A DNA stretch of 64,000 nt from Kappaphycus alvarezii (taxonomy: Eukaryota; Rhodophyta; Florideophyceae; Gigartinales; Solieriaceae), in NCBI GenBank assembly GCA_002205965.3, contig NADL03000679.1:434001-498000 (forward strand). Reading direction: 5' to 3'. Both the position numbers and the translations under genes were made by a program. The notes beneath the pieces were generated by a model. The model saw only the letters and a list, made by a program, of their open reading frames with translations. It was not told where the DNA came from and made no database searches. Below are positions 2,641 to 62,895 of this stretch, piece after piece. Position 1 is the stretch's first letter. Each line of letters opens with the position of its first letter.

Positions 2641-2664
2641 CAAGAGGTTACGCCCCACTCTGCG

Positions 2665-3204
2665 GTGTCGCCACCGAGCTCCCATGGTCAGTTGGTGGCA
2701 AAGAATGTTCAAGAGAACGTTGACAAGGCCTTTTTAGAAGGCAAGATTGCAGAAGAATCTAAGAAGATTATGAAGGTCGTAAAAAGGGTAGTAACCCAGA
2801 TGATATTGAAGAGACCGTGTTTCCGCAACAAGAATCCGAAACACCCGGATCGGATTTATGTTCTCGCTAAGAGAAATCACAAAGTCTATGTGGACATTGG
2901 AATGACGTTTGTATTCATGAGGAGAGCTATTGCAGTGTTAGACACTGGCGCAGGACCCAACTTCATAAGAAGGAACGAACTCCAAAAGGAGATGGAACAT
3001 AAAATTCGCTCCGGCCCGTTGCCATATATCTGTGACGCGAATAATAATCCACTCTCTATGAGAGTTTCAATCAAGTTGCCCGTGAGGCTAGGAACACGAC
3101 TATCATTCGTGGAGTTCATAGTCTGCGACAGAATAGCAGCACAGGTAATCCTTGGTGCAGATTATTACGACAGATGTGTCGAAGCAAAATTAGGCCCAGA
3201 CTAA
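2665..3204 (+). pseudogene. Aspartic protease of the chromovirus
   Basis: An open stretch of 179 codons (no reliable start; it is part of a polyprotein). It shows the retropepsin active site AVLDTGAGPNF at about 2935-2967 and the second conserved patch VILGADYYD near 3145-3175. The protease would cut the Gag-Pol polyprotein. It lies in a different frame from gag. The following linker (3174-3825) is split over two further frames and has no recognised domain. Confidence 0.8.
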
Positions 3205-3748
3205 GAAAAGTCGAGCTTGATGACGGTTCATCTGTCCCAATTACGAGAAGGCCTTTACAGAAAGCAGGGTATACATTTACTGTTCCCGAAGAACAGAAGA
3301 TAGGGCCGCAAAAGCGATTTCCAAACAAGGTGCGTAGTGCACAGGCGTTTACGATTCCCCCTGAATCACAAATGTTAATAAAAGTTACCTCTAATAGGTA
3401 TGGATTATTGGTTGTACAACCATTGTCCCACTTGTACTATAAGTTAGTACTGTCTGTGGCCAATGGTGTTGTCCAAGTCGAACAAAATCGATCGTTTAAG
3501 TTGCTTATAGCCAACTTTGGTAAGAATCAAAAAAAGGATATGTAAACATCAAGTGGTTGCTACCACGTTACCACATCCGACCGCTATGGTCCAAAGCCCT
3601 GTAAGGACAGGAGAGGTACAAGGTATAGTGGAAGATTACCCAGCAGAAGATGCTTATGGCGCACTATTATTCGAAGAGCCAAAAGCCCCTTTACCGGATG
3701 CCGTGAAGACAGAAGAAACCACTTCCGTTAAGGAAGACCCAGTGGATA

Positions 3749-5382
3749 ATGATCCCGAATATTCAACAAGTAGAGAAGCTACCAAAGATGTTGCAGATGG
3801 TAAAAAAACTCTTAGGAGTCGATGACCTTGACTTTAGTCATATTCCAGAGGTTCTAAGAGAGCGCTTTCGTGACATGCTGAAGAAGTACTCCTCTATGTG
3901 GGATGGCTCCCTTGGAGATATTAAAGCTACGACTCATCGTATTGAACTAGTCCCAGGGACCCGACCTATTGCTCAAGCACCATATCGAGCAGGCCATAAA
4001 GCCAGAGAAATCGAAGGGATAGAAGTCCAAAAGATGTTGCAAGCTGGAATAACAGAGCCCGCACACTCAGAATGGGCTTCACCAGTATTACTGGTACCCA
4101 AGCCTGATGGTTCCTTTCGCTTTTGCGTTGATTTTAGGAAACTGAATGCAGTTATCATCAAGGATACGTATCTTATTCCTCGTATGGACGAGTGTATAGA
4201 CTCTCTAGGAGAGGCAAACATCTTCACAGCGTTACATACTTATTGGGGATATTGGCAGATCCCAGTTGCGAAAGAGAATCAAGATAAGACGACATTCTCA
4301 AGTCATAGTGAACTGTACCGTTTTAAACGGATGCCAATTGGTTTAACCAATGCACCAGCCACGTTCCAACGTGCGCTTGACATATTATTGTCACAATAAA
4401 AGTTGACATCATGTCTCTAATATCTAGATGATGTCATCATCTTTTCCCGGACAGGGGAGGAACACATTCAACATGTGGATACCATCTTATAGACCCTTCG
4501 AAGGGCAGGAATAACTCTCAAGTTGAGAAAATGTGAATTTTTCACCGAATAGATCAAATATCTTGGTCATGTTATTAAGTCAGGAAGGCTAGAGATAGAT
4601 CAGGTCCTTCTGACGGCTTTGCGAGAGTCAAAGATGCCTAAGACTCAGACTCAGCTACGAAGCCTTTTAGGTTTGTATAACGTCTACAGACGATTTATTA
4701 AGGATTTTACGCGTATAGTGCATCCATTGAACAAACTCCTTAGGAAAGGAGAACCAATTAACTTACGACCTTTTGGTCCCGCAGAGGAATAAGCGTTCCA
4801 AACACTGAAAGATGCGATTCTTTCGCCACCAGTATTGGCTTTGCCGAAGCCAGGATTACAATATTCTGTTGATACAGATGCGCCTAAGTTACAGGTTTCT
4901 TTTCAAGAACACTGCATGATACAGAGACAAGATATTCTGTTACAGAATTAGAATGCCTAGCGGCAGTATGGGAATTAGACCTATTAAGGGCTTACTTGAT
5001 GATGGAGAAGTTCATTGTGAACACCGATCATGCACCCTTAAGATGTCTTCAGAATGTTACGGATCCGTCAGGACGTTTAACTCGATGGCGCCTACGCCTA
5101 AGTGAATATTTTTTCGAATTAAAGTACAAGAAGGGTCGTGCTAACACCCAAGCAGATGCACTCTCAAGTCTTGAGACTTGGGGAGCAACGACTGTTGAAG
5201 TTAACGAAGAGATTCCATGTTTCTTATGTGAAGAAACGACATCATGTATCCTTTGGGAGGAGAATAAACCAGGAAGTCTTCCTGAAGAAGACCTCGATAT
5301 CTACGATGAAGCAGTAGATAAGGTACTCTCTCTTCAGAGCCCGACGGAACTCGATAAGGTTGTGGCCATAACTCCTGAATAG
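3749..5382 (+). pseudogene. Reverse transcriptase and RNase H of the chromovirus
   Basis: Typical Ty3 RT blocks are visible: SPVLLVPKPDGSFRFCVDFR, then GYWQIPV, then the catalytic YLDDVIIFS near 4424-4450 and IKYLGH. RNase H is recognised from TELECLAAVWELD, NTDHAPL and ADALSSL. It is inactive. The first catalytic aspartate of RT (the LDT/LDL motif before GYWQIPV) reads LHT, stops interrupt the frame at 4397, 4418, 4490, 4553 and 4790, and a frame change follows in RNase H near 4890-4930. Most stops sit where family members have Gln or Trp. Confidence 0.88.
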
Positions 5383-5409
5383 CTAGTACGTGAACAGGAT
5401 TCAGATCCA

Positions 5410-6219
5410 TTGTGTAAAGCTCTGAGAGCTAGACTTGATAACGGAGAACAAATAACGATCTCCATGGATGCGAAAGCTTATGAAGGATACTTGTGTAGAA
5501 AATCCTTAAAAGGGATCCAGATGGTCATTCCAAAGTCTTTTCAAGACAGATTATTAAGAATAAGGCATTATGCCCAGACCTCAGGTGACCCAGGAGGGAG
5601 ACGAATGTACAAGTCCCTATCGAAGGATTATTACTAGCCCTCCATGGCCTCGGATGTTATCCCGTAGTGTGGCATTGTACAACAGCGCGTAATCGGGTCA
5701 AGTTACGGAAGAACCGTAAGGAGCTGAAGCTCTTTCCACCAGAAGCTCCGCTGGAATTTGTTGCGATAGATATTCCTGGAGAATTGATCAAGACCAAACG
5801 TGGTCACTGTTACCTTTTGGTAATAACCAATCGTTATTCGAAATTATTTCGAATGGTGACTTTCAAGAGGATAAACGCGGCTTGCATAGCCTATGACTCT
5901 GTGCACCATTGGGTGTTTGTCTATGGGTCAACGGTCAAGTTATTTTCCGACAACGGAAAGCAGTTCACTGCAAAGTTCTTCCAGAACGTATCAAGGATCC
6001 TTGGAATCAGTCAGATTTACAACAACGTACCACGCCGAGGCCACCGGTCAAGTGGAAAGATTCAACAGAACTATCATCGCTGCCTTGATGTACTATGTCG
6101 CTGATCACCCAAAGGATTGGGATTTGTTCTCTGATGTGTTGACATACGCATACAACACTCAGGTCCACAGGACTACTAACTTAGCTTTTTTTGAGTTTTT
6201 ATCATCAAAAGCTCCATAG
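5410..6219 (+). pseudogene. Integrase of the chromovirus
   Basis: The N-terminal HHCC zinc domain is decayed: the second His is Asp in SGDPGG, and the Trp after DYY is TAG. The core keeps its three acidic positions across two frames: FVAIDIPG, LFSDNGKQF and GQVERFNRT. The last part is in the frame starting at 5893. The enzyme would insert element cDNA into chromosomes; this copy cannot be made as one protein. Confidence 0.85.
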
Positions 6220-6297
6220 AGCTAGGCAATACAAGCCCAAACTTCTTTAGAAGACCTTGGAACAGAAAGACAGTGCCACTTAAAGTGGCAATCATGG

Positions 6298-7227
6298 TTG
6301 CAGCACCTTATGCGCACAGCTAGTGCTTTTATACAGAAGGACCAAGCATGTTATAAACGTAACTTGGATGCAAGGCTTCGAAAGCCTAAGTACGACATTC
6401 CAGTAGGATTCTATGTTTTCCTCAGAAAGGAATACTTCGGAGAGCAAGACCGCAAGCGTAACCTAGCATCGATCGCCACAGGACCCTACAGGGTAAAATA
6501 AGTCAATGATGACACCGTCGTTATCCGAGATGGAGGCATGGTGGAGCGAGTCTCAAGACACCGAGTGGAGTTAGATCCCAGTCCCTTGGATAGGGTAAAT
6601 AAACCGCGTATCAACACCCAGATTACAGAAGCCACTGAAGTGACACCACAGCAAGCGACTTTGCAAAGACGAACTGTATCAGTAAGTATTCCAGAAGGGT
6701 ATGCAGAATCGCGTGGTCTTGCGGACCTCCCCCTCGAAGTTTCTATTAAGAAACCCGCAGAGGAAGACCTTCCTCATGTGATACACAAGGTAATAGACCC
6801 GAAGTTAACTGCCAAGGACGCACAAGGTCAAGCGGAAGACTCGAAAAAGTCAGAGGACTCAGAAGACGATGAACAAGAGATTGAGAATCATTTACAAGGA
6901 ATATCACGACGTGATAACGTCGATGTAGATCCAGGAGTGATCGACACTCCACAACAGCAAGAGACTCGGAAGTCTCCACATCAGTCGACTAGTAAGTCAT
7001 CGCGTAGAATGAGTCGAAGTCAAACATGAAAAATTTCAATGAATGAACAGGACAAAGTCAAAAAGCACATAACGGAATACGTTGTTGATCAAATTTTTGA
7101 TCATGGCAAGGCCGAAGACGGCGAGATGTTATACCAAGTCCGATAGTACGATTATCCTGCGGCCGCTGCCACATGGGAACCTATTAGAAGTTTGCCGCGA
7201 TCAAAATTAGTTTCATACTACAAATGA
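6298..7227 (+). pseudogene. Integrase C-terminal region with chromodomain
   Basis: 6298-6501 is the integrase C-terminal domain. 6538-7029 is an acidic, low-complexity linker ending in TGA. The same frame continues to a stop at 7225-7227 and encodes a chromodomain (about 7066-7224) with EYVVDQIFDH, YQVR, the stop TAG, YDYP, then ATWEP and KLVSYY. In chromodomains the residue at the TAG is Trp of the aromatic cage (KW/RW), so this is a TGG to TAG change. Chromodomains on integrases bind histone marks and steer insertion. Confidence 0.85.
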
Positions 7228-21847: not shown

Positions 21848-22564
21848 ATGCCATTCGGTAAGAAATTGAGCTAATGAGAGCAGCAAAAATCTTGCCATGA
21901 CAGCAAGATGGAGTGTCAGCGTGTGAGATGTCCCTCCGGCTTGAACGATTGTGGAAACCGATCCAAAAAATCTTCAAAGATCCCTCAAGATACTATAACA
22001 AGATACAGGGTGGTAGACAGTCAAAATTTTCCGTTCAAAAAAATGATCATCCGCGAGGCCTCTAAACGTGAAGCAAACGCCAGTGGAATACACAATTCAC
22101 TTAATTTGCCGATTACGGCGAAAATAGCCCAGCAGATTCTCTCAGCAGAGCCCAGTCTGGACTATAAGAAGGCTAAGAAAACGGTCTTTCTCGTAGAGAC
22201 GCACAAGCACACTCGTGTGCAATGGGCCCGAGCCCGGGCATCCTGGACCATGTCAAACTTGGGCCGCGTTTTGTTTTCCGATGAGAAAAAAATAAAGCTC
22301 AACGTTTCTGATATCTCAGCATGTTACTGGCACGATCCGCGGAAAGGGGAAAGGATTTTTTCGAGTCACCGGATGAGTAGTGGGTCGATGATTATTTGGG
22401 CCGCATTTTCAGAGAAAGGGAAATCAGAACCCGCCTCTTTAGGTGGCAAAAAGTACGCTTCTGCCTACACAAACAATTTGCAGGAGTTTCTGTTACCATT
22501 TACAGCCGAATATCATCCAAACGGGTGGAAATTTCTGCTAGATAATGCAGCTCTTCACAAATAG
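21848..22564 (+). pseudogene. Tc1/mariner-type transposase relic
   Basis: Open from 21908 to 22564. The features follow Tc1-like transposases: an HTH-type N-terminal part that can be followed back to MPFGKKLS at 21848 over frame changes, VRVQ/VQWARARASW, the first catalytic Asp in VLFSDEKKIKL, YWHDPRKGE, SGSMIIWAAFS, LLPF, and the second catalytic Asp in FLLDNAALHK. A stop follows directly and no SPDLNPIE-like third motif was found downstream, so the C-terminus is missing. Terminal inverted repeats with TA duplication were not identified. Confidence 0.8.
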
Positions 22565-41912: not shown

Positions 41913-42352
41913 TGTTGGTACAATTACAGCTTACTGACAATGTATGCGGGGACAGCTACTGTACTTTACAGTACTTTACTTTTCAACCTAGATCTTGACC
42001 GTTACGTTTATGCACTGTACTGTGCTGTGAGCTTGAGCTGATCTTTTTCAGATCAGCTCAGATAGGTTTAGGGTTATTCCTTCACCGTCGTCTACATGGC
42101 TTCTGGAAACTTCCACAGGTCGTGCCGAAGCATCAAGCGACTCGCCCTGAAGTCTATATAAGCCATGGTCTCAGCCCGCTCTTGGTCGAAGTAAAGTCTC
42201 TCACCACTTTCCCTTCTCTCAACTCTTCTCCTTGGTCGCTCACTTTCTCTCTCTCTCTCCTCTTGCTCTGTCTCTCTCTCCACTCGCTCTGTCTCCCTCT
42301 TCTCTCTCTCTCTCTCGTCCGCTCGCGCTCTCTCCCTTCTCCTTGTCCAACA
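41913..42352 (+). repeat. Copia-1 5' LTR
   Basis: Contains a hairpin (11-bp arms, 42034-42044 and 42050-42060), a TATA box TATATAAG at 42155-42162, and a CT-rich leader part. The ends are TGTTGG and CCAACA. Confidence 0.95.
42155..42162 (+). promoter_or_regulatory. TATA box in Copia-1 LTR
   Basis: TATATAAG inside GAAGTCTATATAAGCC. The same TATATAAGCC context is kept in the Copia-2 LTRs, although the LTRs differ widely, which supports function. Confidence 0.6.
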
Positions 42353-42366
42353 GGTTATGGGCCCAG
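42353..42366 (+). promoter_or_regulatory. Copia-1 primer-binding site for half initiator tRNA-Met
   Basis: GGTTATGGGCCCAG directly follows the 5' LTR. It is the exact complement of the anticodon stem-loop of eukaryotic initiator tRNA-Met (CTGGGCCCATAACC). Drosophila copia primes with such an internal tRNA fragment. The same 14 bases occur in Copia-2. Confidence 0.85.
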
Positions 42367-42472
42367 AACACTAGCGCTGCTCACGAATCCATCTCGCTTG
42401 CTCGCGCACCCCGGACGCTACCCTACACGGAGTGTAGGGACAGACTGAACAACTTCGCGGAGGCTAGGGAAG

Positions 42473-42504
<32 letters not shown>

Positions 42505-42750
42505 CCCTTAAGGTTTGACCGCACTCTCTTGACGTCTCTGCACTATCTACTGACCTCCTGTCTTGTGGCCTGCTTAGCGTCCGTCGTCCCTGCTCTACCT
42601 ACTCCTGTTGGTTTTGCAGCCCGTCGCCGCTCTTCATCCCCACACCACAGATTCCAGTACATCTTGCGGCCCGTCTTGCTCTCGTTGCTTCTTGTCTCGC
42701 CCCCGTGTTACATACCCCGGTTTGTCTCACGGCCCGTGCCTAGTCGCAAC

Positions 42751-43704
42751 AGTAAGTCCAAACCATCTTGTGCTTTTCTCATACCATCCCGAAGCATTGC
42801 CTTATCCTCCGCCTAACCTCACAAATTTCTGTTACCAGTGGTCATCTCACTATCCGTATTTCGTCGCGGCATCGACATCCCTCCGAACGATCCCGTGATT
42901 CGCCGCCTTACCTTCGACGAATCCTCCGCCAAGCCTCCTGTCCGTCCGAAGTGCCGTTTCATCGACGATTCCGCTATTGAGTCGGACGGCGAAGGTAACG
43001 ACATTCCTTCCACCGCGACTACTCCAGAGGTTGTTCACGTCGAAGTCGTCTCCAAGCCTCCTCCTCCGGAGAAGAAGGACTCCTTCTTAAACCATATCCT
43101 TTCCCTTGCCAACCGTCCGAAACTGCCTGCTCGTCCGAAATCTCTAGCTCCGAAACCTCTACGAAAGAAGTCAAAGCCAACGAACCTTCGCTCCAAGCCG
43201 CTTCCTGCCTCATCGAGCAGAGTATCGAAGCAAAGCAAGAAATCAAAGGGAGGAGAGCCGAAGAAGAAGAAGGATCCGAAACCTCCGACACCTCGACCCA
43301 TTCAAGTGGTTTCTCTCATCTCCCCTTCTCCGGCTTTGACGTCTCCAGCTCCAGCTGCTCCCATCCAATCTCCACTCTCTCCTGCTGCCCCTTCTGTTGC
43401 ATTTGTTCCTTCATCTCCAAGGGTTCCGACTCCTCTTTCAGTCGAACCTCTCTCTCCGGCTCCATTCGTTCCCCTACCTCAAACTCCTGTTCCTCCTATC
43501 TCCAAGCCCAAGTCTTCCCTCCTGGTTTGTGACCTTTGCCAACTCAAAGTCTCGGGTCCAAAGCAGCTCGAGCAGCACAGAGGTGGAAAGAAGTGTCGAA
43601 ACAGAGTCGAGAGGAGATCAGCCATCACTTCGTGTGTTTGCTGCAACCGTCTCTTCCAGACGAGACACGATCGCAACAGGCACATTGATCGTAGAAATAA
43701 GTAA
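42751..43704 (+). CDS. Copia-1 ORF1: Pro-rich protein with C-terminal zinc fingers (spliced)
   Basis: Predicted as 42751 joined to 42839-43704, 288 residues, starting MVISLSVFRRGIDIPP. The middle is Pro/Ser/Lys-rich. The C-terminus has two finger units: CDLCQLKVSGPKQLEQH with a following Cys, and CVCCNRLFQTRHDRNRH (CX2CX12H; the Copia-2 copy continues HIDHKH, giving a full C2H2). The fingers are highly conserved with Copia-2 (LCQLKVSGPKQL, FQTRHDRN), which indicates selection. Standard Ty1/copia elements have no ORF before gag. A DNA- or RNA-binding accessory role is a guess. It ends 69 bases before the Gag-Pol ATG. Confidence 0.75.
42752..42838 (+). other. Predicted 87-bp intron that creates the ORF1 start codon
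   Basis: The donor is GTAAGT at 42752-42757; the acceptor is TTCTGTTACCAG ending at 42838. Joining A42751 to TG at 42839-42840 makes ATG in frame with ORF1. The unspliced genome has no ATG for ORF1. Copia-2 has the same arrangement (intron 55762-55854 on minus, also A + TG), although the intron sequences differ. Splicing has not been shown. Confidence 0.7.
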
Positions 43705-43773
43705 ATTTGTTCTCGACCCCTGTGCTCCCTCTATCTATAAGCACAGTTTTCTCTCACTCCACTGCTTTTCTCC

Positions 43774-46700
43774 ATGGACTCTTCAGGACTTCGACTCGAC
43801 AGCCTCGAGAAGCTCCGTGATGACAACTTCCACATCTGGAAGTCGAGAATTCAACTATTGCTCTCACTGAGGGAAGTTGACGACCACCTTACTGAAGACC
43901 CTCCGGAATCCTCGTCACCTACATACTCCGCATGGAAGAAGGCGGATTGCAAGGCTAGGGCTACCATCGGACTGACTCTATCTGATACCCATCTCGAACA
44001 AGTCCAGCATGCCAATACCGCCAAGGTCATGTGGTCCCTGATTTGTGATATCTTTGAGAAGCATACTCTTCTCAATAAACTGGCTGCCAGACGCCGATTC
44101 TATACCGCCAAGATGAACCCGAACGAGAAAGTGCTCTCGTTCGCCGGCCGTATCCGCCAGCTCGCTGCCACTCTCAAGTCGATGTCCGTCCACATCGAAG
44201 ACAGCGAAATGGCCATGGCGCTACTTAACGGCCTGCCAGATCGCTTTGATACTCTCATCTCGGCCCTTGACGCTGCTCATCTCGATGACGACAAATTCTC
44301 CTTCGAGTTCGTTCAAAGCAGATGCCGCCAAGAGGAGCAGCGCCATGCCCAACGAGATCAGGACGCCTTGAGGGCTTCGGAATCCGCGGCTCTTCTTGGA
44401 AAGCAACGGCCCAAGTTCAAGCGAGACCCTACCGCTGAGATATGCATACACTGTGGAAAGCATCGTGACAGCAGTCGCTGCTTCAAAAAGTACCCACACC
44501 TTGCTCCTGTTGGCCACCCAGCTCGAGCTCACTTGAACAAGGGCCGAGATGGGGGAAAAGGTCTTGTAGCTTCCCAAGCTTCCCTTGAGAAAGAAGAAGA
44601 CAGAGACCTCGTCTGCTTGGTATCCATGCCTAATCATCGCGTCGCTGATTGCAACGCTGCAACTCCGGAATGTGAGAACGAGATCGTTGTAAGCAATGTC
44701 ACCACCGATCACTCGGTTGATGGAAATAATTGTCGAATTGAAGCGAATCCCTTGAACCAAGCCAATGTGGCGCTACAAACTATTGGTAGCTCTGTATCCC
44801 TTGCTAATGAATGGGTTATCGATTCGGGCTGTACCTCCCATGTCACTCACGATCGCTCGGCCTTTGTTTCATACCAAGAGTCCTCGGCTAACTCAACTCT
44901 GGATCTGGGAGCAGATTCTACAGCCTCTATCGAGGGAACAGGTGACGTAGTGCTGACTCTCCGTTATAAAAAGGATACCGTTCAATGCCTACTAAAGAAC
45001 GTACTTCACGTTCCTACCCTTCGATACCAGCTGCTCTCGGTATCCGAAATGGCAAATCGCGGCATTAACTCCCAATTCAATCGCAACGCTGTTCTGCTTA
45101 CAGAAAACACCGATGGATCTCTAGTGGCCACCGGCACTCTTGTCAAAGGCCTTTATATACTAGATACCTGTCAAAGTCCATCAAAGGCTAATGACTCGGA
45201 AGTTTCCTTGCTTACATCTCTGAAGACATGGCACGAGCGACTGGCTCACATTAATACCGCTGAGATCAAGTCGATGGTCAGTCATGGAGCTGTCACAGGT
45301 GTTAAATACGTCAACTCTGGGACCCCTGACTCTTGTGTGGGATGCATTCTTGGAAAATCACACCGTGCACCAATCCCAAAGTCAAGAAAAGGGCGGTCTA
45401 CGAAACCCCTCCAACTGGTTCACTCAGATGTTTTAGGGCCTGTGGAGATTCCATCTCTTGGTGGGGCGCGGAACTTAGTGTCTTTCATTGATGACTGTTC
45501 CAAATGGACAGTCACCTATCCTATCACTCACAAATCTAAGGTTTTAGAGTGCTTCAAGAAGTACAAGGCCTTCGCAGAAAAACACACCAGCCAGTCTCTA
45601 GAAGCTCTTCACGTCCTCGAGTTCCATGACACCAAAATCCCGTTCGAGAACGATCAGCTTCTGGTAAAGGCTTTACGGTCGGACAACGGAGGCGAATATC
45701 TATCTACAGCATTCAAGAACTTCCTGGAGGCACAAGGTATTCAACATCAGCTTACAGTGGCTCATACTCCTCAGCAAAATGGAACAGCTGAAAGAATGAA
45801 CCGAACCCTTCTCAATCTGGTCCGATCAATGCTGCATCACAAGTCCCTTCCAAAGCACTTCTGGGCTGAAGCGCTTTCTACCGCTGTGTATGTACTAAAT
45901 CGGGTTACATCCAGTTCCCTGCCTGACAATACTACTCCTTATGAACTTTGGAATGGAACACCACCAGATATCTCCCATCTTCGAGTGTTCGGTGCGCAAT
46001 GTTGGTACGTTATTCCTAAGAAGGATCTCAAAAAGTTGGATCCCAGGTCTCGTGAGGCACTAATGATGGGGTACTCAACCCAAAGTAAAGGATACAAGCT
46101 GTGGGACATTGCAGCTGAGAAAATGGTTGTTTCCAGGGACGTCACATTTGACGAATCTTCGAATTCTCCGCAAGATCAACACTGTTCAAGCTTTATCGCG
46201 AACAAATAGAAGGGAACACGAATCCAATCGGCAGCAATCGTACTTCCAAGGATCTGCTGATTGACTCTCCTTCTGGTAGCGAACAAGATGAGGGATCACT
46301 TGCCACTAATGAGGATACGAACCCAGTCCAATCCAGCCCGGGTACTCCTAGTATTGCTCCTCGTCGTTCATCCCGGATTGCGAAGAAGCTTGGCAGATGG
46401 TGGCCCTCCGGGTCGTCTGAAGATGTATCGCTCATTGCGGAAACCGCTCTTGTCTCTATTGGAATTCCAGCATCATACGAGGAGGCTACTTCTTCAGAGA
46501 ACGTCGACTTTTGGATGCCTGGAATCAAAAAGGAAGAAGACTCCATACGAGAAAATGGCACGTTCGAGCTTGTCCCGCGAAAGCCAGGGATGCACGTCAT
46601 CCCTTGCCGGTACGTTTTTCGTGTGAAACCAGACGTTGGTCCCAAAGTCCGCATAGTCGCCAAAGGATTTCGACAAGTTCCAGGTCTCGAGTATAATGAA

Positions 46701-48017
46701 ACCTATGCTCCTGTAGTTTCTCTCTCTGCCCTACGATTATTTCTCTGCATCACAAACTTCTTTGACCTGGAATGCGACCAGATGGATGTTGTGACCGCGT
46801 TTCTTAATGGGGAGTTAGAAGAGGAAATATTCATGGAAGTTCCGTCCGGATTTCACGACCCAGCCAGGCCAAATCTCGTATGCCGCCTTCAAAAGGCCCT
46901 GTATGGGCTTAAACAGGCTCCACGTCAGTGGTATGCCAAGATTCATGAGCTATTAACCGCAGAGCTTCATTATATGAGTAATCCTCATGAGCCCTGTCTT
47001 TATGTCTCTCGACAGGGCTCTTCGATCTCCATAATTATTCTGTACGTGGATGACCTTCTTATTGCTGGAAACGATCGAGTAACTCTGGAAAACATCAAGA
47101 CTGAGTTGAAGAGTCGATTCAAGATGAAGGATCTGGGGCCTGTCAAAGAGTTTCTTGGAATCCAAGTTACTCGCAATCGATCAACAAGGACGTTACATCT
47201 CTCTCAGAAATCTTACACTGAGAAAATACTTGAAAGATTCAACATGGCCACCGCGAAGCCTGTTGATACCCCTATGGTTCTTTCAAACGGGGTCTCGGAC
47301 AACAGCTCAGAAGCTGATCTTTCCCCATCGATACCGTATCGCTCCGCAATCGGAAGTCTCATGTATTTAATGGTATGTACTCGCCCGGACATTGGTTTTG
47401 CTGTCGGTAAACTTTCACAACACTGCGAGAAGCCTCTGGAAAGCCATTGGAAAGCCGTAAAGCTAGTTTATCGTTATCTCAAGGGTACAAGCGACCTCGG
47501 AATCTGTTACAGTCCCTCTGCTGCTCCAACTATCATCGGGTACAGCGATTCTGATTGGGCCGGCTGTTGAACAACTCGCAAGTCGACGGAAAGCTATGTT
47601 TTCATGATGTCCGGAGGTCCTATTTCGTGGCGTTCGAAGAAACAAGGATGTGTTGCGCTGTCTTCGTGTGAAGCAGAGTACATTTCCATTTGCACTGCGT
47701 CCAAGGAGGCAATATGGTTGTCTAACGTCTTGTCTGAAATACTGGGCTCAAATCATCCAAATCCGATTTCAATCTTGGTCGATAACTCAGGATCTATCAG
47801 CTCTGCCAAAAACCAGTCCATTAACGAGCGCAACAAACATATTGATATTCGATACCACTTTATTCGTGAGGCCGTGGCAGCAAATCAGGTCCATTTGTCA
47901 CATTGCCGAACCGAAGACCAAATCTCTGACATTCTGACAAAACCTTTGCTTCGAGTGAAATTTGAAAGATTTCGGAATGAGTTGGGCATTGTTTGTTCAC
48001 ATCAAAGTAATGTTTGA
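43774..48017 (+). pseudogene. Copia-1 Gag-Pol polyprotein with one frameshift and one stop
   Basis: ATG at 43774 is the first ATG after the primer site. Gag has a CX2C-type knuckle CIHCGKHRDSSRCF with unusual spacing. Protease: VIDSGCTSH. Integrase: HHCC domain (WHERLAHIN, CVGCILGK), then LVHSDVLG, SDNGGEY and TAERMNRT, the DDE set. RT: DVVTAFLNGELEEEIFME and ILYVDDLLIAG (YVDD at 47043-47054). RNase H: SDSDWAGC, KKQGCVALSSCEAEY, IDIRYHFIRE and DILTKPL. A one-base shift lies between about 46150 and 46210, and TGA at 47568-47570 replaces one codon after WAGC. Copia-2 reads through the shift site in one frame, so the break is a mutation. Confidence 0.95.
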
Positions 48018-48069: not shown

Positions 48070-48507
48070 TGTTGGTACAATTACAGCTTACTGACAATGT
48101 ATGCGGGGACAGCTACTGTACTTTACAGTACTTTACTTTTCAACCTAGATCTTGACCGTTACGTTTATGCACTGTACTGTGCTGTGAGCTTGAGCTGATC
48201 TTTTTCAGATCAGCTCAGATAGGTTTAGGGTTATTCCTTCACCGTCGTCTACATGGCTTCTGGAAACTTCCACAGGTCGTGCCGAAGCATCAAGCGACTC
48301 GCCCTGAAGTCTATATAAGCCATGGTCTCAGCCCGCTCTTGGTCGAAGTAAAGTCTCTCACCACTTTCCCTTCTCTCAACTCTTCTCCTTGGTCGCTCAC
48401 TTTCTCTCTCTCTCTCCTCTTGCTCTGTCTCTCTCTCCACTCGCTCTGTCTCCCTCTTCTCTCTCTCTCTCTCGTCCGCTCGCGCTCTCCCTTCTCCTTG
48501 TCCAACA
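48070..48507 (+). repeat. Copia-1 3' LTR
   Basis: Matches 41913-42352 apart from a 2-bp CT-repeat difference, followed by ATTAC. Confidence 0.95.
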
Positions 48508-53700: not shown

Positions 53701-54843
53701 GCAGTTGGTAGCGAAGGTTTGGAACGTGTAATACGTTTTTCATTACAAACTTAACAGTTTCTCCCTTCCGTCGTAACGTGAGATCAACCTCACCGGAGCC
53801 AATAATCATAGCCGTATAATCTGCCCCAAGGTTTAGAATTGAAGGGGACCCGAGAAGGTGATAACTTGTGAAAGCTAAGTGGTCGTAAGTGACCTGCAAG
53901 GTACATCCTGAATCGATGATCCATTGCATAGATGAGAGAGGAGGGCCTCCGGTAGATTGAAGTGCTACTTGTTGTGCAGGGGAAGTCGACGCAGAGAGAC
54001 AAACGACATCTGGGTGTTCGGTATTTTCAGCAACCTCCGTGGCATTGAGGGATTTCCTCAACTTCCTCTAGCCTTATCGAGATGAGCTCTAGCAGGATGA
54101 ACTCTGGGAGCGAGATGAGGGAACTTCTTGTAGCATCGTTTGCTATCCCGATGCATGCCGCAGTGTATGCACATTTCTGCGGAAGTTCGTGTTCGAGGCT
54201 TGGAAGACTGGGTTCCCAGGAGTGCAGCCGTCTCAGCGACTTTGAATGCGTCTCGATCTCGCTGAGCATGGTGCTGCTCTTCTTATAGACATCTACTCTG
54301 TACAAATTCGAACGAAAGCTTGCCATCTTCGATATTCGAAGCACCAAGGGCTGATATGAGGCTGTCAAAGCGATCGGGCAAGCCATTGAGGAAGGCCATG
54401 GCCATTTCGCTGTCCTCAAAATACACAGACATGGATTTTAGAGTGACCGCAAGTTGACGAATACGGGCAGCAAATAGCAGAACTTTCTCATTTGGGTGCA
54501 TCTGCACGGTATAGGAGCTACGTCTTGCGGAGAGCTTGTTTAGCAGAGTATGCTTTTCGAAAATATCACAAATGAGTTTCCACATTTGCTTGGCTGTGGT
54601 GGCATGTTGAACCTGCTCAAGGTGAGCATCTTAAAGTGTGAGTCCAATGATGGCTCTTGCCTTGGCATCTGCCTTTTGCCATGCGGAGTGATTTGAAGGA
54701 GATGCTTCCGGTGGATCAAGTGTAAGATGATTGTCAACCTCCCTGAGAGATAGGAAGAGTTGAATTCGAGCTTTCCAAATGTGAAAGTTATCATCATGGA
54801 GCTTCTCTAGATTATCAATACGAGGTCCGGCAGAGGAGTCCAT
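50718..54843 (-). pseudogene. Copia-2 Gag-Pol, decayed
   Basis: It starts MDSSAGPRIDNLEKLHDDNF, like Copia-1. Protease: IIDSGCTLQVT. Integrase: the second Asp is changed (SENGGEY instead of SDNGGEY); TAERMNRT is kept. RT: ILYLDDLLIS. RNase H: KKQGCVALSSCEAEY. Several frame changes and stops separate the pieces (54631-54843, 54283-54585, 53399-54061, 52663-53295, 52043-52729, 51141-51950, 50718-51134). It cannot yield active enzymes. Confidence 0.9.
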
Positions 54844-54875: not shown

Positions 54876-55855
54876 TTAATTTTTGTGTTTATGGTCGATG
54901 TGTTTGTTGCGGTCGTGTCTAGTTTGGAAGACGCGGTTACAGTGGGCACAAGGAGTAATAGCCGACTTCCGCTCAGATCTGTTGCGGCACTTCCTACCAC
55001 ATCTGTACTGAGCAAGCTGCTTCGGACCCGATACTTTGAGCTGACATAGATAACAGGTGAGGAAGGAAGACTTGGGTTCCGAAAGAAAGGGTATTATAGG
55101 TGCCACAGGAGGTGAAGGAGAAGGTACAGTGGACGAAAGAAGTGGAGCTGTAGAGAGGGGTTCGACAGCAAGCGGAGTCGGTATTTTTAACACTGGAGGG
55201 TCAACAGGAAGAGGCGACACCCAAGCGATAAAGGGGACTGGGTGAGAGTGACTAGAGCAGGAGCTGGAGGTGTCGGAGGTGCTGGAGTAGGAGAGATCGA
55301 GTTAATAACTTGAACTGGGGCAGCTACGTTTGGAACTGGTTTCTTCTGACCCTTTGGTTTCGACAAACGACTTGCAAAGACGAGTATAGGCTTTGAGCGG
55401 AGCTTGACTGGATTATTGGAGTTGTTCCCGATTGCAGGGCTTTTTTTTGTACCCAATGCCAAGATGTGTTGAAGAAAATCCTTCTTCTTGGGAAAGAAAA
55501 TCTTCTCGTGAGAGTGAGAAGGAAGTGAAACGACGTCCCAAGTGGTTGCAGTGGAGGTTATATCACCGCCTTCACCGTCAGACTCAACAGCGGAGTCGTC
55601 GATGAAACGGCACTTCGGGCGAAATTACGGCTTCTCGGATCGGGGCGGGGCTTGGACAGGGTCTAATGAGTCGTCGTCGGAAGTGCGATTGATACGCTGG
55701 ACGACAGAGTCGTCTGGAGAGATCTTGATTCCTCGAAGGAAGACGGAGCGGCGGATGACCACTGGAGGCAGGACGTTGGGAGGTTAGGCGAAGGCTGAGG
55801 AAGAAGCGTGAAAGATATAAGGAAGCAAGAGGTTTAGAGGAGATTTGGACTTACT
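54876..55855 (-). pseudogene. Copia-2 ORF1, zinc-finger protein, broken
   Basis: After the splice-made ATG it reads MVIRRSVFLRGIKISPDD. A TAA interrupts near 55625 and a frame change precedes the C-terminal open part 54876-55220. That part has CYLCQLKVSGPKQLAQY and CAHCNRVFQTRHDRNKHIDH, with one finger His changed to Tyr. The C-terminus is close to Copia-1 ORF1 while the Pro-rich middle has diverged. Confidence 0.8.
55762..55854 (-). other. Predicted 93-bp intron in Copia-2 leader
   Basis: The minus strand has GTAAGT at 55854-55849 and an acceptor ending CTCCAG at 55762. Joining A55855 to TG at 55761-55760 creates ATG followed by GTC ATC, as in Copia-1. Confidence 0.65.
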
Positions 55856-56218
55856 GTTGAAACTAGACACGGGCTGTGAGACAAACCGAGGTATGTGACA
55901 CAGAGACGAGGCGAGTAGCAACGAGGAGTCGGGCCGCAAAATGGACTTTGTTCTGTGGTGCGGGGATGAAGAAAGACGATGGGCAGCAAAACCAACCAAA
56001 GTAGGTAGTGCAGAGACGACTCGCGTTAGACAGGCCACAGGGCAGAAGGTCAGTAGATAGTGCAGAGACGACAAAGAAGTCAGATCAAACCTTAGGTGCT
56101 TTTTTTTTGGAGCTTCTGTGTTTTCCTCCCTACACGGAGTGAATGTAGGGTAGCCTCGAGGTGGTTCGCGTCGAACAGAGAGCGCGAAAGAGATAAGTCT
56201 GTGTGCAGCGGTAGCGGC

Positions 56219-56232
56219 CTGGGCCCATAACC
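56219..56232 (-). promoter_or_regulatory. Copia-2 primer-binding site for half initiator tRNA-Met
   Basis: On the minus strand it reads GGTTATGGGCCCAG, the same 14 bases as in Copia-1, directly after the 5' LTR. Confidence 0.85.
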
Positions 56233-56941: not shown

Positions 56942-59060
56942 ATGGAGAAAATGAGAGGAACAAAACGTGGTGCAGAACGCCAGGTTCGCAGTTCGAGCGA
57001 GAGCAGAGGGGAGGAAATGGAGGTCGTATTTCGTCAAGAGCACAGTCCGTAACAAAGAGATCTCAAATTCGAAATAACGCACCAAAGACGAAGTCCAATG
57101 TCGCGGAAACCAAGAATTGGGTACTCGGAAGGCCAGTAGAGAGAATGATGGAAACGATGTGCCGGGTTCTGAAGATGTTGTCATATTGCAAGGTGCAGTT
57201 AGAGCTGGCCCGAGCACTATTCAGGACGTTAAAGAAACTGCTAGAGGAGATTCAAAGCTGCCGTCCCATGTTTCAACCCTTAGGACAGGATCAACTACAT
57301 CCACACTTCGTGTGATGCCCAAGGATCCAATCCGTGCCGAGCCGTTTTATGAGGAATTGAACAAACTACTGGCCGAAATGCAGGCTTGAATTAAGGAGGC
57401 AAATGGGAACGGTAATGTGAGAGATTATAGAACGCTTGTACTTCAATTGTTCACTGAGTCGCCTTTTTCAATGAAGGGAGTATTTGCACTATGAAATACC
57501 TTTATTCGATCATGTTTTGCAAAGCTCTCGAGATTTCAGGATGTATCCCAACGAAAAATAATTTGACTCCAATCACTGATCATTTAATGAGTGCATATAG
57601 TATCATATTTACGGAAATGAGGGATAGACAAGATCTGCTAATATCTCAAGAGCTCCAGAGATCACTATACGCCAGGGAACAGGGGCAAGAAGAGAAACAA
57701 GAAGTTTCTCCTGCTGGTGGTGCTATATAGTTTGTGAAAGAGCTTGCACCAATCGATGCATTGCAGGATAAAGATGAGGGATTTACCGTTGTTAAATCGT
57801 CACATCACGTGATGAGAGATGTTACTGCATCACGTGGTGTCACGGCGTCTCATGGGCAGTTAGTTGACATTCCAACAGGAAATAAGGACCATAGAGGATT
57901 GAAAATAATGCATCATGGTGTTTCGTCAGCAACACATGGTAAATTTGCCCCTAATATGACCGTTACAAGCCCCCCCAAGGAATCCTTTGTCAATGATGTC
58001 AATGAAAGTAAACGATATAATCAAGAAAACAATGAAAATGCTGAAAACCTCAAGACTGGAGGAGGAGATAACGATACAGAGTCTTCCAGCTGATCGAGCA
58101 GTGAGGATGTACCCGAGGTAGCAACCGTATGACTAATTCTCCTAGACCCCCAAACAGCTCCGCAAGTGGCAGTTCAAGCAGTTTAGGCGAAGATAACAGT
58201 AATAAATCGCTCGCGAGTGCCTCATCTGATTCCTCAAAGAGGATCCGACGTCGACGGGTTAAGAAAGAATTGCGCCGTGCAAGGCGCTTACAGAAATCAG
58301 AGCGCCGGATGAATGGAGACATGCAGAGAGCATGCGATGGCCTTGAGAATGTATCTGGAGCCAAGGAACTCCTTGGGTATTTTAACAAAGCAGATAAATG
58401 TTGGTCCGGCCCCAGAGACCCACGCCACACCACGACAAATTTTATCGAGCGGTACGACCTGCTGTACATTTTCGGCATATCTAGGGCAGTCGGGATTGCC
58501 TGTCTACAGTTTGCGTTACGGGGAGATGCACTCGGTGAGTATACATCAAATTTTGCCGACGACGCGGACGCAGGGTGATGCTGAAATGCTTCATCGTTTA
58601 TTGACCGCACCGGTAGTGCTCTAACGACAGTGGAGATGGTGACTTCATTTAAGGAAGACTGAAATGCGATTACCATAAGCGATGTTAGGGATGATGGCAA
58701 TTGTATGGAAAGGGAATTCACCCGGATTGTCAGGAAAGGGCGACGCTTACAAGCAAGTCTTGGTAAGGACTACTCATCTGACGCCCAGCTTGCCGATTTC
58801 TACAGACGTGCAGTAAACGAGAGATTTTGGATGTATATCAACGACAGTGATCCCTCACTGAGTGCTCGTGCGTTGCAGGGTAAAATCGAGAACTCAATCA
58901 AGCGTTACAGGCGGACGGACAAAAGCGGGCGGCAATAATCAACGTACAAAAGAGCATATGGGCATGGACACTCGGCGATTCGGCAAGCATAATTCTAAAC
59001 GACGAACCAGCTTTAGGACACTGAACCGTAAAGGATCCACGTCGAGACTGAAGAATCCTA
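56942..59060 (+). pseudogene. Copia-3 Gag relic
   Basis: ATG at 56942, then several frames with stops: 57117-57389 (DPIRAEPFYEELNKLLAEMQ), 57491-57730, 57734-58093, 58129-58578 (Ser-rich then very basic, then PRDPRHTTTNFIERYDLLY) and 58705-58938. It is recognised as Gag mainly by its position before the zinc knuckle and protease, and by its charged, low-complexity make-up. Confidence 0.6.
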
Positions 59061-59998
59061 CTTTTCGTGATGGGTCGGTGATGACATGTACGGGATGTGG
59101 ATCCGAGAATCATTTCTATAAGGACTGCACGAGCCCGGATAAGGAAGCCTACCGCGAGAGAAGGCTGACTAAAATTGCGGAGGTGAACCTTCACCAGCAT
59201 GTGCGATCGTTGCGTTCCTATTATCTGCAACTGCATGAATGTGAGAGCGATGCTGACGCCAACGAAAATTCCGGTATGGACACAAGCTCCCATACGGATC
59301 TTGATGAGGCGCACAGTATCGTCACCACTCTAGACGGAAACTTAGATGAAAGTATGTTTCTGGAGCTGACTTGTGACATTTACACTGACGTGAAGATTGT
59401 ATTCGACAATTGCAACAATCTTCGAACGCAAAATGCGTTCTTTGGGGCAAGCTCTTACAGACGTCCGAGTTCTCGCGCAAAGGGAATCAGGAATAGGTCC
59501 AAAATGGGTGAGATGTTACGCTATCCTGAAACTATGTTACCAGACATTATGGTGGATAACGGGTCTACTGGCTCATTGTGCAGTGTTGCAGAGCTAGAAG
59601 CATATCTCAATTTTAATGGACACAAGGCTCCCATGAAACCGTTGAAAGGGCGCTTTGCATCGACAGGCCATGGTGAGTCCGCATGTATTGGTGTGGCAAC
59701 ATTTAGTTTCCCATGTGGTGATGGTGTTTTGAATTTTGATGCCCAGATTGTCGAGAATGCTGATCCATCCTTAATCCTCGGCCTCAGGGAAATGAACAAA
59801 CTTGATTCTAGAGGTGTTGACCAAGTTTGTAACGATATCACATTCCATGACGGGCCGCCGCTTGGAATCGTTCGCGATAATGCACACCTATGGACCGATG
59901 GGACTATGGCACGGAATTTTTATTCACCGAGCAGGAGCTTACTAAGCTCCACTACCGATTTGCACATCCAGGAATCGAACGCATGCATAACTTTCTGA
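59061..59998 (+). pseudogene. Copia-3 zinc knuckle and protease
   Basis: A CX2CX4HX4C knuckle (CTGCGSENHFYKDC, near 59090-59130) is followed by a retropepsin-like unit with MVDNGSTGSLCS near 59550 and SLILGLREMNKL near 59770. The active site reads DNGS rather than D-S/T-G. The frame is open for over 370 codons (58862-59998). Confidence 0.7.
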
Positions 59999-60800
59999 AG
60001 CGCGCCAAACCAGGTGGTATTGACAAAGACACTCGCAGGATGTTAACTGACGTCCATTCTGAGTGTAAGGAATGTCAGCTACTCGCACCAAAGCCATACG
60101 TTGTCCAAGTTTCCGTCCCAAGGGACGACCTCATATTCAATAGTAAAGTCGTGGTAGACATCATGTTTATAGGTGGACGCCCAGTCCTACACGTTGTGGA
60201 CAAGGCTACCCACTTTCAATCTGCAAGGTTCCTACCGAACGATTCAACAGACACGATCTGGAGAACGTTTATGGGATGTGGGTGTTGGTATAATATTGTG
60301 CTCCTGAAAACTTACAGCATGACCAGGGAACGCAATTTGTTTCCACTCGGCTACAAGCGATGGCAGCCGAAGTTGGCATAACTTTTCCCCCTGTGGGTGT
60401 TGAAGCACCGAACGCGATGTCGGTGGGTGAAAGATATCATGGTCCGTTACGTAAGGTCTTCCAAAAGCTGAAGGAAACTTACGCGAAGCCTCATGTTAGG
60501 CATGATTCAGAGCAAGGTACACGTCGGGGGCATACCAAGAAGTCTACGATAGAAAAGAAGTCTGTAAGCGATGAGTAGTTGCTTGCTGTCGCTATCAAGT
60601 GTGTTAACAGTACAGTGGGACCTGAAGGAATCTGCCCGTGCCTATTGGTGTTTGGAGCTATGCCAAAACTATCGCTGCCGGGATCCGCCCCTAGCGCCGT
60701 ACCACAGGCCGAAAGGATGAAAATGAAGGAGACTACAATGGAAGAATATATTGCACTCGTTGCCAAGATGCGCCTTAAACAAGCTGAAAAAGAGTTATAA
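59890..60800 (+). pseudogene. Copia-3 integrase
   Basis: HHCC domain: LHYRFAHPGIERMHNF with CKECQLL. Core: VVVDIMFIGGRPVLHVVD (first Asp), HDQGTQFVS in another frame near 60320 (second Asp), and VGERYHGPLRKVFQKLKETY (Glu) at 60426-60485. Frame changes near 60300 and 60375 separate the parts. Confidence 0.8.
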
Positions 60801-61364
60801 TGCGCAAACCCCCTTCTACGCTACAGTACGGTGATAAGGTCCTGGTCTACAGGGATACTACTGGTCGCTGGGAACCACGAACATTCGTTTTACAGAATGA
60901 CTACAACATCTTTGTCAGGGAACCCAACGGGGACGTACAATCGTATGGATTATCTAGAGTGAGGGAGCTACGTGAAGGAATTTGTTTGGCTGGACCTGAT
61001 ATTTATGACATAGGGCTCAACGATGCCGATGATGATGGTCAACCCAGCAATTCGTCATCAATGAAGACAACGCCGCACCATCGCCGACTTCCGATCCAGT
61101 CGTTCATAATCTTTAATGGCGCACTGATGTAGAATATGATAACATTGATCGTTACTTACCCGACCGTATGAAGTCAGTCAAAGATCAGCCTACAACTGCT
61201 GACACAGGTAACTTCCGGATCGGAACGGCTTTGACGACGTTTTTTATCTTGATGTGAGTTCTGAGTGCGTATTTTACGCATGCGGAGGATAACTACGTGA
61301 TTACGAATCAATTATACACATTATCGAGGGTGTATCGACAGCTGAATCGTTAGCGACTGCCATA

Positions 61365-62190
61365 GTGCATAGTGCAGATCCGCGCAGCGCACTGCTCGAA
61401 GACGCTATTCAACGTGAACTAAGTGGACTTGAAGAAAGAGGTGTTTTCAAGGAAGCCCGACGGTCAGACTTTACGGAGGAAGAACGTCAAGACCTAACTA
61501 TTATCGGCTCACGCCTTGTGTTGACGATAAAAGAGGAGGGTACTCCGGACGAAGTTTACAAGGCCAGACTAGTGGCGCAGGCTGTCGGTAGTCGCGATAA
61601 GGACAAACGAATGTCACAGACGTACTCAATTACAGTGCACAAATCATCTATTCGCACTTCATTTTCATTGTCTGCCTCGTTGAAGCGCTCCCTGTTCTTC
61701 AGGGACATAAGCCAGGCTTATGTATCTACAGAATCATCACTTTTGCGGGATGTATACATTATTCCGCCGAAGAGACTTAACCTGGACAGGGACATATTAT
61801 GGAAGGTGTGAAAGCCTCTATATGGCCTTCCGGAGAGTGTTTTTTTGTGTTTTGAAACGTAAATCGGACACAACTATAAGAAGCTTGGTATACAGAGCAC
61901 TGAGACCGACCCCTGCTCCCTCTATCGGCATGAACACAGCGGTCAGCCCGACGGTATAGTATGTTTACAGGTTAACGACTCTGCTGGGATTGGGTCGGCC
62001 GCCTTCTTAGATGAAGAGGAACGAGAGTCATCGCGGTTTGCCAATAAGGGCCGACAAATATTGTCAGCTACGAACCCAATTAAGTTCAATTGTATGCACC
62101 TCGAGCTGCATGGTTCGGATACAAATGTCCATGAACGGCCTTACATACAACGGATGCCCTCGGAGTACATTGAAAGGTCTGCTCAATCGT
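61365..62190 (+). pseudogene. Copia-3 reverse transcriptase
   Basis: RT blocks are EVYKARLVAQAVGSRDKD, FRDISQAYVSTESSLLRDVY, KPLYGLPES and then, in another frame near 61890-62010, a CSLYRHEHSGQPDGIVCLQV patch. There the catalytic DD reads ND. A stop at 61809 and frame changes break the domain. Confidence 0.75.
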
Positions 62191-62191
62191 T

Positions 62192-62895
62192 ATGTCTAAT
62201 AGAATGCAAATATCAAAAGTGAGCACGTGCACAAGACTTGACTTGACATGCGCTATCATCCAACTCCCTCAATTGGATCCGACCAAAACTACAGAGGCTG
62301 ATTTCAAGCGTCTAGAACAAGTATATAAGAGATTTTGCAATTTTGATTACTCACTCTGTTACAGTGAGCTAGACCTCAACAGATTAGAGCTTCACGTTTT
62401 TGGTGACGCATCTTTCGCCACAAATAGAGACCTTTCCTCCCAACTAGGGCATTTTATCGTGGTGGTGAATTGTACCAAACGTTGCTCAGTCCTAAGTTGG
62501 TCTTCGACCAAATGTAAGCGAGTCACTGGGTCCCTTTTGGCAGCAGAGATTTACGCCGTTTTAAATGCATATGATGCTGGTTATGCTATAAGGCATAACT
62601 TGGCGTCTATTTTACGACAGGAAATACCTATTCGTCTGTTTACGGATTCCCGGACACAGTCAGATAGCATCTTTGCATTGTGTAACATGACCGAGAAACG
62701 ACTGTTAATAGACATCGCTGGCCTTTGAGAGGCGTTTCGCTCTAGTGAGTTGGATAATATCGCATGGATCCGTTCCAGTTCTTATCTTGCGGATGACCTT
62801 ACGAAGGATGTTGTGACAGGGTCTCTGCACGATGCACTGCGGACGCATCGCATTGATACTCAGATTGGACAGTGGATCGCCGACGGTCACTTGTA
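62192..62895 (+). pseudogene. Copia-3 RNase H
   Basis: Copia-type RNase H with LHVFGDASFATNRDLSSQ (catalytic Asp), VLSWSSTKCKRVTGSLLAAE (Glu), RLFTDSRTQ (Asp), and after an in-frame TGA at 62726-62728 the tail YLADDLTKDV and IGQWIADGHL, ending in TAG at 62893-62895. Confidence 0.85.

Follow-up and report, generated by a model that had tools for sequence, protein, structure and literature searches.

A predicted splice-made start codon inside an ATG-free leader in Copia-type retrotransposons of Kappaphycus alvarezii

How might a gene be translated that has no ATG of its own in the genome? The question is raised by a retrotransposon of the red alga Kappaphycus alvarezii, here called Copia-1, located in the window analysed, which is the 64,000-nucleotide (nt) stretch at positions 434,001-498,000 of contig NADL03000679.1; genome-wide scans were made in the 336-Mb assembly. 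Copia-1 is a Ty1/Copia long terminal repeat (LTR) retrotransposon with an accessory zinc-finger gene, open reading frame 1 (ORF1), in the leader before Gag-Pol. On the forward strand, the primer-binding site GGTTATGGGCCCAG (42353..42366) contains ATG 42357, which opens an upstream ORF (uORF) of 5 codons, MGPEH and a stop (42357-42374). Exon 1 (42375..42751) continues the leader without ATG, carries a poly(A) tract and ends with the A of the future start codon. A predicted intron of 87 nt (42752..42838), reading GTAAGT...CTAAC...CAG and lacking ATG, separates it from the ORF1 body (42839..43704), which holds the FIDDSAIESDGEG motif and C-terminal zinc fingers and has no ATG in any frame. The sequence reads as the first-pass annotation described it, with A42751 followed by GTAAGT, and CAG ending at 42838 followed by TG from 42839.

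The interpretation that splicing makes the ORF1 start codon is supported by a comparison of 55 sequences. Full-length unspliced RNA would present the short primer-site uORF and then 1.4 kb without AUG, so that scanning or reinitiating ribosomes would traverse the intron and ORF1 and initiate at Gag-Pol. Removal of the 87-93 nt intron would join A to TG in the strong context AACAUGG, and the spliced RNA would make ORF1; since it is intron removal that builds this AUG, splicing would choose the protein made from each transcript. Splicing, delivery of Gag-Pol by scanning and any regulation of the choice are what we infer here, and the model as a whole, with unspliced RNA serving Gag-Pol and spliced RNA serving ORF1, is considered likely.

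Absence of ATG from the leader

A full listing of ATGs within 42100-43800 gave only 42165, 42357 and 43774, in agreement with the earlier claim that none occurs between the primer-site ATG and that of Gag-Pol. The first probably precedes the site where RNA begins, because it starts 3 nt past a TATA-like box (42155..42162), read from the sequence in the 5′ LTR, with RNA expected to start about 25-30 nt downstream of the box. The second may be imposed by the primer. The resulting run of 1,417 nt is the longest ATG-free run on the forward strand of the window, the runner-up being 558 nt, and the second longest in the window (1,181 nt, the longest on the reverse strand) is the leader of a related element, Copia-2. 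For the 1,414 nt concerned, 15.1 ATGs are expected from base composition and 8.4 when dinucleotide content is preserved, and none is seen; the 15-20 first predicted thus stand for base composition, but not when dinucleotides are kept. Synonymous shuffling of ORF1 gave 2.9 expected ATGs (P 0.023), or 4.8 with the codon usage of Gag (P 0.0014). Together with the calibration on decaying copies described below, these expectations lead us to reject chance or composition as the source of the lack.

Extra leader ATGs were then counted in the 21 Copia-1 sequences, comprising the window copy and the 20 next best among 40 scored of 428 candidates; the 19 scored leaders left out are on the whole less similar than those examined. 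No extra ATG occurs in 18 of the 21, the others having one at 42445 (L015 and L024) or 43761 (L020), and one copy (L022) has lost the primer-site ATG. For Copia-2, where 40 of 368 candidates were scored and 20 fetched, the tally of 21 copies showed 0-6 extra ATGs each at 42 sites, of which 36 are present in one copy only, six in two or three copies and none in more than three, so the common ancestor of these copies was probably without extra leader ATG. A third subfamily, Copia-3 (L054, L062, L067), is about 80% identical to Copia-2 and 71-77% to Copia-1 over the aligned parts; extra ATGs number 1, 1 and 6 in its three decayed copies, with one site common to two copies, and in the third copy, which has no primer site, some of the six may be foreign.

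The Copia-2 copies are decaying, as judged from singleton changes in an alignment of 34 Copia-2 and Copia-3 sequences, in which within-family singletons in ORF1 fall evenly on the codon positions (198/200/203) and the per-site rates in exon 1, intron and ORF1 are similar (0.75, 0.72 and 0.68). In the 21 Copia-2 copies 851 singleton changes produced 36 private ATGs, about 1 per 24, which calibrates what unconstrained change does. Copia-1 was compared with L032, a Copia-2 copy picked because it is ATG-free and has 3 singletons only. They differ at 391 of 1,273 sites, for which 16.5 new ATGs are expected and 0 seen (P about 7e-8); restricted to well-aligned parts, 184 of 742 sites differ and 7.8 are expected (P 4e-4). 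Against the Copia-2 copy of the window, 429 of 1,286 sites differ, with 18.1 ATGs expected and 2 seen. Because protein constraint also removes some ATGs, the preferred figure is that of a conservative simulation limited to 124 noncoding and 124 synonymous changes, in which 5.2 ATGs are expected and the probability of none is 0.004. By these comparisons, ATG avoidance in the leader is under selection.

The junction and the start of coding

The predicted splice signals are conserved in the aligned copies. In Copia-1 the GTAAGT donor and the joining of A to TG are found in 21/21, and the acceptor is CAG in 20 and TAG in one. The alignment of 34 Copia-2 and Copia-3 sequences, obtained after removal of six duplicates and L068 and completing the total of 55 with the 21 of Copia-1, has a GT donor in 31 (exactly GTAAGT in 27), an AG acceptor in 30 and ATG as the joined codon in 31. 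The Copia-3 copies have the donor of the other subfamilies, a CTGAC motif and CAG followed by TG in all three. The GTAAGT donor, a CTAAC or CTGAC branch-like motif, the CAG acceptor and the join of A to TG are thereby maintained in three subfamilies, as the first-pass annotation would have it on aligning more members. The exact donor-acceptor pair CAACAGTAAGTC...AGTGGTCATC occurs at 107 places in the genome and at none in the reversed control. Among the copies examined, ORF1 has an ATG in genomic DNA at its start only in a decayed Copia-2 copy (L040) whose acceptor AG has become AA. An ordinary ORF1 ATG, or many leader ATGs, in other copies had been named as what would speak against the idea, and as far as DNA shows the outcome is favourable to it.

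Where coding starts was read from the differences between Copia-1 and Copia-2. Between the poly(A) tract and the donor (42504-42751), exon 1 is 80% identical, and its 49 differences fall 14/17/18 on the three codon positions. From the first codon past the joined ATG, those of ORF1 fall 13/11/34 (P 7e-5), and those in its zinc fingers 11/10/29. Exon 1, without codon rhythm, is conserved as RNA and not as protein, and ORF1, with it, as protein from the join on; protein-coding constraint on ORF1, as measured by these differences, begins at the joined ATG. The spliced frame is 288 amino acids including the splice-made ATG, and the full frame (287-288 codons) is kept in 12 of the 21 Copia-1 copies. 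It contains one C2H2 finger at the level of Pfam (zf-met, E 2.2e-4) and a second finger-like Cys/His pattern, and from the nucleic-acid-type fingers and the acidic motif our guess is that ORF1 regulates the RNA of the element. In the window copy exon 1 has no stop in the frame of ORF1, which would allow an N-terminal extension, but this was rejected as the frame is stopped in 19/21 copies and gives no codon-position signal. The branch-like motif also brings a stop codon, TAA in the two window copies, into frame shortly 5′ of the acceptor, which limits any upstream extension of ORF1 on unspliced RNA. The DNA codon at the acceptor (42838-42840) is GTG, and a gene caller accepting GTG could start ORF1 right there.

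The strongest competitor is that ORF1 starts at a non-AUG codon on unspliced RNA, either CTG or the acceptor-spanning GTG, with Gag-Pol reached by leaky scanning as in rice tungro bacilliform virus (RTBV) and the intron unused. RTBV is a precedent, since its ORF I starts at AUU and its ORFs I and II are without internal AUGs, according to the excerpt of PMC5902531, and both window copies have an in-frame CTG 9 nt 5′ of the GTG. The position of the CTG reads GTG in all three Copia-3 copies, however, and a non-AUG start leaves unexplained why donor, branch-like motif and acceptor are conserved when the intron interior has diverged. The joined ATG, by contrast, has a strong context (AACATGG; both window copies have A at -3 and G at +4) and coding constraint from there on. 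The non-AUG start is judged improbable. It is less probable still that splicing is constitutive, with both proteins made from spliced RNA and Gag-Pol reached past ORF1 through leaky scanning or else reinitiation. An ATG-free ORF1 would equally aid leaky scanning, and in Copia-1 the ORF1 stop is separated by 69 nt from the ATG of Gag-Pol; yet the same A and G disfavour leakage past ORF1, and the genomic RNA must be unspliced, the exon halves being apart in all 40 places scored below. Internal entry to Gag-Pol, for instance via the leader poly(A) tract that is a run of 9-33 A in all 21 Copia-1 leaders compared and shorter in the Copia-2 of the window, with the ATG lack as a by-product of composition, is the least credible of all, since composition predicts 8-15 ATGs, decaying copies gain them readily and entry at a tract 5′ of ORF1 would still need scanning through ORF1.

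Several observations weigh against the splice-made start with scanning to Gag-Pol. The agreement of the Copia-1 copies is not independent, because they are young and similar. Some leader ATGs are shared and possibly inherited, namely 42445 in 2 of 21 Copia-1 copies, the six shared Copia-2 sites and one in two of three Copia-3 copies. The lack of ATG in the intron is weak evidence, as 0.75 are expected there anyway, and the primer-site ATG has a strong context, so that Gag-Pol would depend on reinitiation. A copy that had lost the intron was looked for in the genome with the 13-base junction, giving 3 matches judged to be unrelated DNA against 8 in the reversed control, and with a 120-base joined query, for which the exon halves were apart in 40 of 40 scored places (of 103 candidates). 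Such missing DNA would follow if spliced RNA is kept out of packaging, and equally if there is no splicing; spliced RNA would retain the primer site and LTR ends and might be expected to be copied occasionally, yet no such copy was found in the places scored. Lastly, some ORF1 relatives elsewhere, which are known as predicted proteins only, may carry ordinary genomic ATGs.

The two elements in the window

The 5′ LTR of Copia-1 (41913..42352, forward strand, 440 bp, TG...CA) and the 3′ LTR (about 48070-48507) were identified by repeat search and compared with each other. The pair shows 0 differences in 438 positions and, with the flanks, a 5-bp target duplication, ATTAC; the element is young. 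TG...CA ends and a short target duplication are as in Ty1/Copia elements, as is the order of domains in Gag-Pol (43774..47570, forward strand; Retrotran_gag_2, gag_pre-integrs, rve, SH3 and RVT_2), where a Copia-type Gag is followed by integrase and then reverse transcriptase (RVT_2). In the window copy Gag-Pol is interrupted, being split across two overlapping frames, the first with PF14223 (E 6.5e-32), PF13976, PF00665 and PF25597 and the second with PF07727 (E 3.2e-66); a single uninterrupted frame is present in 1 of the 21 copies. The frame change at 46152-46209 looks like decay rather than programmed frameshifting, because the remaining copies are broken elsewhere or intact. The GGTTATGGGCCC part of the primer site presumably fits the anticodon arm of initiator tRNA-Met, and a bacterial-code scan found no tRNA gene in the 64-kb window.

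Within the leader, the poly(A) tract at 42473-42503 varies in length between copies; it may serve to recruit poly(A)-binding protein, or its length may simply drift by slippage. A putative hairpin, CCCTACAC/GTGTAGGG, is present at 42421-42439 and a similar one with a different loop at 56150-56128 in Copia-2, a candidate packaging or dimer signal.

Copia-2 lies on the reverse strand, with the primer site (ATG 56228) and the ATG-free leader through the A of the join at 55855..56232, a predicted intron of 93 nt at 55762..55854, ORF1, decayed by stop codons and frameshifts, at 54876..55761 and the Gag ATG at 54841..54843. The junction of A55855 with TG55761-55760 was borne out by the sequence, as were the two ATGs, 55047 and 55002, noted earlier for the matching region, which are the only ones between the primer-site ATG and that of Gag. 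The primer-site uORF is 32 codons, against 5 in Copia-1, and both end before ORF1. A second splice skipping ORF1 to an acceptor just 5′ of Gag was discarded, as, read by eye, the stretch of this copy that runs from the ORF1 stop to the ATG of Gag contains no AG. Other transposon-like frames seen by eye in the window are at 773-7029 (protease/reverse transcriptase), 21878-22564 (transposase-like) and 58862-62728 (another Copia-like).

Relatives, known systems and meaning

A search with ORF1 and then with its profile gave 45 proteins, of which a fish zinc-finger protein (P0045) was set aside, leaving 44. Eight aligned ORF1 sequences share FIDD.A.ESDGEG and the C-terminal fingers, the others having variants of the motif. 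Internal Met accounts for 11 of 8,747 residues and is absent from 33 of the 44, compared with 3,362 of 139,876 (2.4%) in 120 Gag-Pol proteins. Trp is also low in the ORF1 family (0.16%; Ile, Leu and Val 4.9-7.0%), so the scarcity of Met is partly compositional. Seven of the 11 internal Met sit 10-23 residues before the called C-terminus, and six of the seven belong to a single group of close relatives; a short uORF so near the end would presumably do the least harm. In several relatives (e.g. P0003, P0014, P0039) the called start coincides, or nearly so, with the position of the joined ATG; in other groups the N-terminus is longer and translation may begin in another way. Four ORF1/Gag-Pol pairs (P0010/P0054, P0007/P0074, P0030/P0071, P0032/P0113) agree in source and contig size, which suggests that ORF1 travels with Copia-type elements elsewhere. 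Among the best 120 of 158 Gag-Pol matches every organism-named one is from Chondrus crispus, and two more are EukProt bare identifiers; tblastn found no ORF1 relatives with DNA in IMG/VR.

Each half of the arrangement is known from viruses. In Epstein-Barr virus, splicing of C2 or W0 to W1′ creates the AUG of EBNA-LP, and proteins further downstream can be translated when other junctions are used, as given in the excerpt of PMC12451641. There, as proposed here, the AUG of an upstream protein is built at a splice junction, and in the Copia sequences it is split across the conserved junction described above (21/21 and 31/34); the herpesvirus uses alternative donors and acceptors, whereas here it would be intron retention in the genomic RNA of a retroelement, with an ATG-free coding region downstream. 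RTBV and badnaviruses have upstream ORFs without internal AUGs, through which ribosomes can scan for about 900 nt until they reach ORF III, the polyprotein frame (PMC5902531, in part). An upstream ORF of this kind is found in the DNA of Copia-1 and Copia-2, and for relatives elsewhere in-frame Met is the basis of comparison. The viral upstream ORFs have start codons that are weak or other than AUG and that are present on the very RNA that is scanned, whereas the joined ATG, if it is the start, is strong and missing from unspliced RNA. RTBV P4 is likewise an accessory protein from spliced pararetroviral RNA with its start supplied from upstream, but in that case splicing links ORF IV to a leader uORF that already exists and, in the same excerpt, no AUG is built at the junction. 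BARE1 and Drosophila copia, also Copia-type, have spliced mRNA beside unspliced; the spliced RNA of BARE1 is used for Gag and is Gag-only, and neither a splice-made start nor an upstream zinc-finger gene was found in the part of its description available (PMC3735527). In titles and abstract starts of open-licence PMC articles no retrotransposon combining a splice-made AUG with an AUG-free upstream ORF was found. The novelty first supposed for splice-made initiation is accordingly narrowed: both devices have viral precedents, and it is their combination in an LTR retrotransposon that looks new.

The wider reading is offered tentatively, and is about as easily doubted as believed: in a red-algal Copia clade, a nearly Met-free zinc-finger ORF1 would be hidden from scanning, splicing would create its only AUG, and retention or removal of the intron would decide between Gag-Pol and ORF1. 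If true, an LTR retrotransposon would have a compact means of choosing between proteins: removal of one intron would build the AUG that switches a gene on, and with the intron retained that gene, its coding sequence cleared of AUGs in every frame, would be silent. Since the codon at the join is GTG in the DNA, such genes would be prone to being overlooked or wrongly positioned by gene callers. How a single RNA is spliced, translated and packaged would be linked, and methionine-poor upstream ORFs would be the predicted, searchable mark of such devices in other retroelements and viruses.

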